Positions 18,390-20,646 of a DNA stretch of 64,000 bases are shown one piece after another. The position numbers were made by a program, and so were the translations under genes. Origin of the DNA: Verrucomicrobium sp. (GTDB taxonomy: Bacteria; Verrucomicrobiota; Verrucomicrobiia; Methylacidiphilales; GAS474); assembly GCA_028283855.1 (NCBI GenBank), contig JAPWJX010000003.1:1116001-1180000 (forward strand). The letters are read 5' to 3'. The notes under the pieces are model-generated. The model worked only from the letters and a program-made list of their open reading frames with translations, did not search any database and was not told where the DNA came from. Each line of letters begins with the position of its first letter. Positions within the stretch are counted from its first letter, which is position 1.

Positions 18390-18776
18390 ATGAGTCTCAC
18401 ATTTATTGAACAGCAGACCCTCGAAGCCGTTACCTGCGCTAATTGCGGGATCATGTTCGCCTTCCCGCAGCGGATCATGACTGAGCGCAGGCGGGACCAT
18501 TCGTCCTTCTACTGCCCGTCAGGACACAGCCAACATTTCCCTGGAAAATCCGACGTAGAGCGGGCCAGAGAACGAGCGGAATACTCAGAAAAGCGCGCCA
18601 CGCAGCTCGCTTGCGAGAGCGCTTCGCTTAGGCATCAGCTTCACGGGACGAAGGGCGCCCTGGTGAAGGTCAAAAAGCGCATCAGCGCTGGCGTCTGCCC
18701 TTGCTGCAACCGCACCTTCTCGAACCTCGCCCGTCACATGGCGACCAAACACGCTAATAAGGAGGTGTCGCGGTGA
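18390..18776 (+). CDS. phage zinc-finger protein
   Basis: 128 aa. Two metal-binding sites are visible: an N-terminal CANC...C-x4-H site (CANCGIMF then YCPSGHSQHF) and a C-terminal CPCCNRTFSNLARHMATKH with the C2H2-like spacing C-x2-C-x9-H-x4-H. A charged coiled segment of about 40 residues joins them. I have seen this arrangement in many phage early regions; the function is not established. Confidence 0.7.
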   Translation: MSLTFIEQQTLEAVTCANCGIMFAFPQRIMTERRRDHSSFYCPSGHSQHFPGKSDVERARERAEYSEKRATQLACESASLRHQLHGTKGALVKVKKRISAGVCPCCNRTFSNLARHMATKHANKEVSR

Positions 18777-18838
18777 AGGTCTACATCTCCGGCCCGATCT
18801 TCGTCGGGTATCGGCTGTTGGAAATGGGGGGGGTGTGA
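18773..18838 (+). pseudogene. 21-codon remnant of a DUF4406-like gene
   Basis: The GTG overlapping the previous TGA begins MKVYISGPIF, the standard N-terminus of DUF4406 / nucleoside deoxyribosyltransferase-like proteins (usually 100 aa or more). After ten residues it switches to [11 protein letters not shown] and stops. The DNA coding GYRLL (GGGTATCGGCTGTTG, 18806-18820) recurs exactly at 23596-23610 in another gene, so this looks like an illegitimate junction that removed the rest of the gene. An eight-G run lies at its end. Confidence 0.5.
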
Positions 18839-19827
18839 GCCGTGCTTATTACAACGAGATCGAACCCTATGCCGCGAAGTGGCTCCGCAACCTCATCGCA
18901 GCAAGGCACATTGCCCCTGGCGATGTCGACGAACGAGACGTGCGCGACGTGCGGCCTGCCGATCTCGGCGGCTACACGCAGTGCCATTTCTTCGCTGGTA
19001 TCGGCGTCTGGTCGGCAGCGCTCCGAGGCTCGGGATGGCCGGACGATGTGCCTGTGTGGACAGCGTCGTGCCCTTGCCAGCCTTTCTCCTCGGCAGGCCG
19101 GGGGCTTGGATTTGATGACGAGCGGCACTTATGGCCGCACTTCTTCCACCTCGTCCGCGTCTGCCGCCCTGGCGTCCTCTTTGGTGAGCAGGTTGAAAAG
19201 GCGATTGGGTTCGGCTGGCTCGATCTTGTTCAAGATGACCTGGAAGGAGAAGGCTATGCCTTCGGGGCGGTTGGTTTCCCTGCTGCGAGCGTCGGTGCGC
19301 CACACATCCGAAGCCGAATTTACTGGATGGCCAACGCCAACTTGCCCTTCCCAAAACGATTCAGAGAAGTCTTCGGGGATGGGAAGGATCAGAAAGGGCT
19401 ACGGCCTGGATCTTCCAGCGGCGGCGTCCCTGACCTCGTGGCCGACTCCAAGAACGAGCGACGGAAACGGCTCGAAAATTCCGCCGAATCGTCTGGGGGG
19501 GGGGGCAGCGCTCAATACAGTGGCGAGTTGGGCAACCCCATCAGCTCGGGACTGGAAATCGGATCGGTCCAAAATGAACAGCAAAGGCCTCTACGGATCG
19601 AAGGGGCAGCCCTTATCGAGGCAAACCCTCTACGCGGATTCTGGGGAAACGCCGAATGGATCTGGTGCAGAGACGGCAAATACCGGCCTGTTGAACCCGG
19701 CACATTCCCGCTGGCTCATGGGGCTGCCTCCCGAGTGGGACGCCTGCGCGCCTATGGCAACGCCATCAACAAGGAGCAGGCGCAAGCGTTCATTAGAGCC
19801 TATCTCGACCTCGAAAGGGGCCGCTGA
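18835..19827 (+). CDS. C5-cytosine DNA methyltransferase (Dcm type), frame 1 of an overlapping pair
   Basis: 330 aa, GTG start. The C5-MTase motifs appear in order: motif [11 protein letters not shown], motif [15 protein letters not shown] with the catalytic Cys, motif VI-like [10 protein letters not shown] (ENV changed to EQVE), motif VIII-like [13 protein letters not shown], a target-recognition region of about 120 residues, and motif [26 protein letters not shown]. The segment [25 protein letters not shown] is typical of phage members. Likely role: modify phage DNA against restriction. The same DNA is open in a second frame with its own conserved features, and an 11-G run lies at codons 221-224. 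Confidence 0.85.
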
Positions 19828-19831
19828 ATGA
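18842..19831 (+). CDS. second protein overlapping the methyltransferase gene in the +1 frame
   Basis: 329 aa, GTG start 7 nt into the methyltransferase gene; the frame stays open to a TGA at 19829-19831 that overlaps the Dam start. It has repeated W-[PA]-T-P units ([33 protein letters not shown]), the block [39 protein letters not shown], and a C-terminus [21 protein letters not shown] remember these as conserved in phage proteins encoded at cytosine methyltransferase loci. Translation in vivo is not shown by sequence alone. Function unknown; inner Met codons could also serve as start. Confidence 0.6.
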
Positions 19832-20646
19832 AGCCCCGACCCCTTCTTCGCTACCACGGCGGCAAGTGGAGGCTGGCTCGCTGGATCATCAGCCATTTCC
19901 CGGATCACCGAATTTACGATGAGCCGTATGGAGGGGGCGCATCCGTACTCCTGCAAAAGCCGCGCTCCTATGCCGAGGTCTATAACGACCTCGACGGGGA
20001 GTTGATAAATCTCTTTCGCGTTGTCCGCGATGATGGGGATGAGCTGCGCCGCCTTCTTGAACTGACCCCATTCAGCCGGGACGAGTTCCAGGACAGCTAC
20101 GAGCCATCCAGCGATCCGATGGAGCAAGCGCGGCGAACGCTGGTCCGCAGTTTCATGGGTTTCGGCAGCAACAGCCACACCAAGGCCACCGGCTTCCGCT
20201 CCTGCTCCAACCGCTCGGGGACGACGCCCGCCCACGATTGGCGGAACTACCCCGAAGCCCTGGCCCATACCATCGAGCGGCTGCGCGGGGTCGTCATCGA
20301 AAACCGGGACGCGGTGGAGGTGATGCGGCAGCACGACTCGCCATTCACCCTTCACTATTGCGACCCGCCCTACGTGCCGGAGACGCGCGATGCGGGCGGC
20401 GATTACCGCCACGAGATGACGGTGGAAGATCACCGGGCCCTGGCGGCCGCCCTCCGGGAGTTGAAGGGGTGTGTCGTCATCAGCGGCTATCCCTCCGCGC
20501 TCTACGACGAGGAGCTTTTCCCGGATTGGCACCGCATCGAACGGTCGGCCCTGGCCGATGGCGCCGCCAAGAGGCGGGAGGTCCTTTGGTTTTCGCCGAG
20601 GGCCGCAGCCCGTCTGGACCTGCCTCAAGAACTCTCTTTCCAATGA
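19828..20646 (+). CDS. DNA adenine methyltransferase (Dam / D12 class)
   Basis: 272 aa. The N-terminus [20 protein letters not shown] is motif X (GGK), [15 protein letters not shown] is motif I, and [13 protein letters not shown] is motif IV (DPPY), the alpha-class N6-adenine order. It starts right after the cytosine methyltransferase stop (TGAATGA) and overlaps both the previous second-frame stop and the next start, so translation is coupled. Likely protects phage DNA or alters host regulation. Confidence 0.9.

Follow-up and report, generated by a model that had tools for sequence, protein, structure and literature searches.

One stretch of phage DNA very probably encodes both subunits of a C5-cytosine methyltransferase in overlapping reading frames

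A prophage stretch of ~990 bases in the window (the whole 64,000-nucleotide stretch of DNA that was analysed) holds two proteins in two reading frames of the same strand (Table 1). We consider it very probable that these are the two subunits of a heterodimeric C5-cytosine methyltransferase, namely a catalytic alpha subunit and a beta subunit that carries target recognition and motif IX. Alpha, read in frame 1, would be the catalytic large domain, with the AdoMet site, the catalytic PCQ, GEQV, RxR and, as its C-terminal helix, motif X. Beta would start internally, in the +1 frame (frame 2), and provide the W[PA]TP target-recognition region and the motif IX that is missing from alpha. The two chains would fit together like the two domains, large and small, of an M.HhaI-like enzyme; once assembled, they would methylate a specific cytosine site, presumably in phage DNA, beside a Dam-type adenine methyltransferase. 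We infer that alpha and beta bind one another, that both are needed, that the enzyme is active and that it has a target site of its own; the purpose of methylation is probably protection of phage DNA from restriction.

Table 1. Features of the overlapping methyltransferase genes and their downstream neighbour, in window coordinates.
Feature	Coordinates	Strand	Details
Frame 1 (alpha), C5-cytosine methyltransferase catalytic subunit	18835..19827	+	330 aa; GTG 18835 to TGA 19825-19827
Frame 2 (beta), longest ORF in the +1 frame	18842..19831	+	329 aa, stop in range; GTG 18842 to TGA 19829-19831
Frame 2, likelier extent from internal ATG 18923	18923..19831	+	302 aa; by relatives' internal ATG
Motif I (FAGIG), frame 1	18991..19005	+	relatives' alignment
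Motif IV (PCQPFS, catalytic Cys), frame 1	19072..19089	+	invariant P80, C81, P83, S85
Helix and beta-hairpin with conserved LTWK motif, frame 2	19154..19297	+	pLDDT 75-89; frame 1 strongly constrained synonymously here
Motif VI (GEQV; ENV-like), frame 1	19183..19194	+	invariant G117, E118, Q119
Motif VIII (R-S-R; RxR), frame 1	19309..19317	+	invariant R159, R161
W[PA]TP repeat region, frame 2	19328..19540	+	presumed target-recognition region; hhalign to single-chain segment between motifs VIII and IX
Motif IX, frame 2	19691..19738	+	16-residue stretch; pattern in frame 2 of 329/370 loci
Motif X (GNAI), frame 1	19756..19767	+	pattern in frame 1 of 353/370 loci
Dam-type N6-adenine methyltransferase, neighbour	19828..20646	+	Pfam MethyltransfD12 2.2e-20; phrog_56 2.9e-72

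The initial annotation had the coordinates of both frames and the 329-codon length of the open frame 2 exactly right. It also had both stops abutting the Dam start; the frame-1 stop does abut the Dam ATG at 19828, while the frame-2 stop overlaps it (ATGA). The surroundings are those of a contractile-tailed prophage, with genes for a RecT-like annealing protein, Dam, terminase, portal, head protein, baseplate, tail fibre and tail sheath, in a genome of 2.56 Mb. Immediately upstream is a 21-codon ORF (18773-18838, starting VKVYISGPI) whose TGA overlaps the frame-1 GTG (GTGA). It resembles the start of a DUF4406 gene, apparently with an internal deletion, although Pfam gave no match for this very short piece; a DUF4406 gene is the gene that precedes gp58 in phage N15. 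Two G tracts also mark the locus, one of 11 G inside the overlap (19495-19505, frame-1 codon ~221) and one of 8 G immediately 5' of the frame-1 start (18826-18833), and the longest G run among other family members is 9, followed by 8 and 7. A slip in such a tract would exchange the downstream parts of both proteins, and the tract may thus serve phase variation or be an error of sequencing.

Openness of a second frame in a single gene proves little and could be due to chance. For the window copy alone, the probability that frame 2 is fully open is 0.0018 by permutation of synonymous codons and as much as 0.034 in draws from prophage codon usage, which is suggestive only. Relatives were gathered by frame 1 only and then thinned to 59 divergent loci. 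In the frame-2 core of these loci (approximately frame-1 residues 48-303) there are 0 stops against 182 ± 9 expected, and the core is open in 59/59 loci against 2.6 expected. Frequent frame-2 stops beside a conserved frame 1, the pattern that the initial annotation had named as speaking against a second gene, are thus the opposite of what is found. Frame 3 of the same 59 loci contains 699 stops (591 expected), and 35 ordinary C5 methyltransferases treated by the same method as a negative control contain 321 (320 expected). Stops are likewise not avoided upstream of the usual frame-2 start, where the first ~30 residues have 70 against 58.5 expected. For the family as a whole, we regard these comparisons as decisive evidence that frame 2 encodes a protein and that purifying selection maintains it.

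The same constraint is evident from synonymous sites of frame 1, whose third codon positions are the second positions of frame 2. Identity at fourfold sites between divergent loci rises from 0.31 (residues 1-40) to 0.68 (81-167) and 0.77 (261-312), with these residue numbers running 3 lower than those of the window frame-1 protein. Individual codons are frozen, including, in the numbering of the window protein, P112 (CCT in 59/59), L131 (CTT in 50/50), V286 (GTT in 57/57), P288 (CCC in 52/52) and A294 (GCT in 45/45). Third positions of frame 1 are near-frozen precisely where frame 2 is conserved, and across the recognition region conservation is slightly higher in frame 2 (0.20) than in frame 1 (0.15).

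Most relatives appear to start frame 2 at an internal ATG located about 85-118 nt into frame 1. This ATG is preceded by a Shine-Dalgarno sequence in 47/59 loci, where 12.5 ± 2.8 are expected, and the specific arrangement GGAG-N8-ATG occurs in 35/59 loci, where 3.2 ± 1.7 are expected. Within frame 1, AGG is picked for Arg 27 times against ~5 expected and GAT for Asp 45 times against 22, a choice that builds AGGAG...ATG inside the catalytic gene. On these counts, the internal ATG and Shine-Dalgarno sequence of most relatives are under selection at synonymous sites, which points to independent initiation instead of frameshifting. The first ~30 codons of the frame-2 ORF probably lie outside the protein in most relatives. 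The window copy is without the usual AGGAG-N8-ATG; ATG 18923 is its more likely start, with ATG 18869 and GTG 18842 as alternatives.

Frame 1 matches Pfam DNA_methylase (PF00145, 4.9e-12) and phrog_363 (5e-82), and its motifs I, IV, VI, VIII and X are invariant or almost so in the alignment of relatives. The initial annotation read the ordered C5 motifs from FAGIG to GNAI in this frame and overlooked that motif IX is absent from it and is found in frame 2 instead. Among 370 loci the motif IX pattern occurs in frame 1 of only 3, and the motif X pattern occurs in frame 2 of just 13, far below its frame-1 count. The AF2 model of frame 1 shows a large domain that is confident over most of residues 1-180 and 310-330. 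Foldseek returns M.HhaI structures as its top matches (best 2z6u, M.HhaI, E 5e-7), and model and search together assign frame 1 an M.HhaI-like large-domain fold. Residues 183-263, at the expected site of a recognition domain and read from the DNA that holds the W[PA]TP repeats in frame 2, are predicted to be disordered (pLDDT 30-47).

Frame 2 matches phrog_1008 (1.2e-31) over residues 43-309. The repeats described in the initial annotation are found there as W-P-T-P at 19328 and 19439 and W-A-T-P at 19529, as is the 16-residue stretch that it singled out. That stretch has the spacing of C5 motif IX, which in M.HhaI is VHPRECARVMGYPDSY. Modelled by itself with AF2, frame 2 gives a poor result (pLDDT 58, pTM 0.29), in which the helix and hairpin around LTWK are the sole well-predicted part. 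Such a model fits a subunit that folds together with its partner, and a small-domain fold is a candidate only. Frame 2 gave no match to the sequences of solved structures. A small set of ordinary bacterial C5 methyltransferases likewise yielded no hhalign match to it, so that the link of frame 2 to this family rests on the single-chain enzymes of phages.

In those enzymes the content of both frames is found in one polypeptide. Mycobacterium phage ShiLan gp70, for example, carries LPTP repeats and motifs IX and X in a single frame, and phrog_1008 matches its residues 196-388 (2e-61). Its recognition region, with [LW]PTP repeats, is of the type found in the window, as are its motifs IX and X; it differs in that its +1 frame is closed by stops. 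When aligned by hhalign to single-chain phage methyltransferases, frame 1 (motifs I-VIII) occupies columns 25-184 and frame 2 columns 218-375 (E 1e-8, probability 96%). A weak second match places the frame-1 motif X at columns 377-399. By these alignments, frames 1 and 2 are complementary pieces of a single-chain enzyme. The N-terminal half of frame 2, around the LTWK hairpin, shares its DNA with motifs VI-VIII, and nothing in the single-chain alignment corresponds to it.

Among 18 ShiLan-like loci, the +1 frame is closed in 12/12 of those with motif IX in frame 0 and open in 6/6 of those without it, one of which has a single stop at its extreme end. In two Mycobacterium phages, Jarcob gp69/gp70 (L377, 1621-2791) and ShiLan gp70 (L384, 1321-2490) are nearly the same methylase, present as two +1-offset genes in the former and as one gene in the latter. 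Motif IX lies in the frame-1 reading of L153, L214 and L217 (Jacopo-like group), and in L153 an apparent natural deletion fuses the two frames, with motif X lost from the fused ORF. Three single-chain actinophage enzymes (L384, L378 and L379) have LPTP-like motifs in the +1 frame 5' of motif IX, which are possibly a relic of the split state.

The frame-1 and frame-2 profiles co-occur in all 377 loci, with frame 2 inside frame 1 at +1, and the tabulated offset is +1 in every one of 362 loci from five search sets. No stand-alone frame 2 was found in the 377 loci, including those from a frame-2-only scan of bacterial genomes. One of the 377, on a plasmid of Klebsiella aerogenes NCTC9644 (L134, 2905-3925), looks like frameshifted pieces of both frames, perhaps a degenerate gene or assembly errors, and was excluded as evidence by itself. 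The overlap occurs in hundreds of phages of distantly related bacteria from several phyla. Paenibacillus phage Jacopo has the same layout, and 34 Jacopo-like loci contain 14 stops against 186 expected. The layout of Lacticaseibacillus phage R23.9 is also the same, with 0 stops against 10.6 expected in a Lactobacillales set of only 3 representatives. It is present as well in Bacteroides phage BS-TP4 and in Microbacterium phage R1 and some relatives, whose mixed set has 10 stops against 27 expected. One reading of this spread is that the dual-coding gene is old and crosses phyla. The catalytic half of the enzyme and its recognition half would then lie in different frames of one DNA stretch, each where the other is dispensable, and frameshift indels would convert split forms into single-chain forms and back. 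We give this history an even chance.

Annotation of the locus is uneven. Both frames are annotated in the records of K1ind2 (ORF29/ORF28), PhiXhv-28, PhiXhv-5 and Jacopo, where the second frame is labeled ‘Mte8-like’ or ‘DNA (cytosine) methyltransferase’. These pairs represent the same locus as the window, and the records are annotation, without a mechanism or a test of the overlap. Phage N15 also has this locus, with frame 1 only annotated (gp58). In a further set (L008, L139, L138), the records of Cylindrospermopsis phage Cr-LKS3 and Xanthomonas phage FoX4 have frame 2 annotated and the catalytic frame 1 missed, and that of Salmonella phage SAP012 has neither.

Two-chain C5 methyltransferases have precedents, among them M.EcoHK31I and, like it, M.EaeI. 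The beta subunit of M.EcoHK31I is presumably likewise encoded in an alternate frame of alpha, and has 176 aa, whereas frame 2 of the window has ~300 codons. We liken the two by motif layout, not by sequence: alpha of the window has motifs I-VIII and X, beta has motif IX, and beta is in the other frame. In M.EcoHK31I (YGGCCR), motifs I-VIII and X are in the large subunit and motif IX alone is in the small one, and, according to the published summary, the large subunit also contains the predicted TRD (PMC3404938), whereas the recognition region of the window appears in frame 2. The window enzyme differs further in being of prophage or phage origin, with no restriction enzyme identified beside it, and in having a layout that occurs in phages of several phyla. 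M.AquI is another C5 enzyme naturally split into two chains, but its motif X is together with motif IX in the small subunit (PMC3404938), whereas motif X of the window stays in frame 1. A paper on an out-of-frame HNH insertion in another ShiLan gene, gp65 (PMC11855218), is unrelated to this overlap. We found no paper describing overlapping methyltransferase genes of phages, or their spread, in the searchable literature, outside which most subscription journals lie.

Other explanations of the second frame fare less well. A ribosomal or transcriptional frameshift from frame 1 would yield an alpha-beta fusion (motifs I-VIII, recognition region and IX) with no separate beta, as might be suggested by the 11-G tract within the window overlap, by the existence of single-chain homologues and by the L153 deletion that joins both frames. 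This seems very unlikely, however, because frame 2 is stop-free from approximately codon 40 of frame 1, well before any point at which a shift would be useful, and strong constraint sets in at residue ~83. Moreover, the internal ATG with its Shine-Dalgarno sequence is selected in relatives, the long G tract is specific to the window, and a fusion would forfeit motif X.

Frame 2 could instead be a real protein with a role apart from the methyltransferase, such as an anti-restriction protein or a regulator, and its N-terminal half, having no single-chain counterpart, could do something extra. As a full account this is at least as hard to credit, given that frame 2 carries the motif IX and recognition repeats that frame 1 is missing, is never found on its own, and gives way to in-frame sequence where the enzyme is a single chain. 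The initial annotation had offered a methyltransferase partner, a specificity factor or an anti-restriction protein; the first two are supported and prove to be one and the same, and nothing supports the third. Finally, high GC and codon bias might have produced frame 2 as an artefact, conserved merely through frame 1, a view suggested by the larger window-only probability and by the single frame annotated in most records. The absence of stops across the divergent loci refutes it at the family level, frame-1 third positions are frozen, and ordinary C5 methyltransferases are null by the same method, leaving its chance close to nil.

The locus is a long overlap of phage genes on the same strand for which support is unusually good, and it ties a reported two-chain layout, that of M.EcoHK31I, to a widespread phage gene family. 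Because both products have an interpretable role, the costs and benefits of dual coding are directly testable. Many database proteins named ‘DNA methyltransferase’ or ‘hypothetical’ would be half an enzyme whose other half annotation usually loses, and frame 1 cloned with changed synonymous codons could yield an inactive enzyme.
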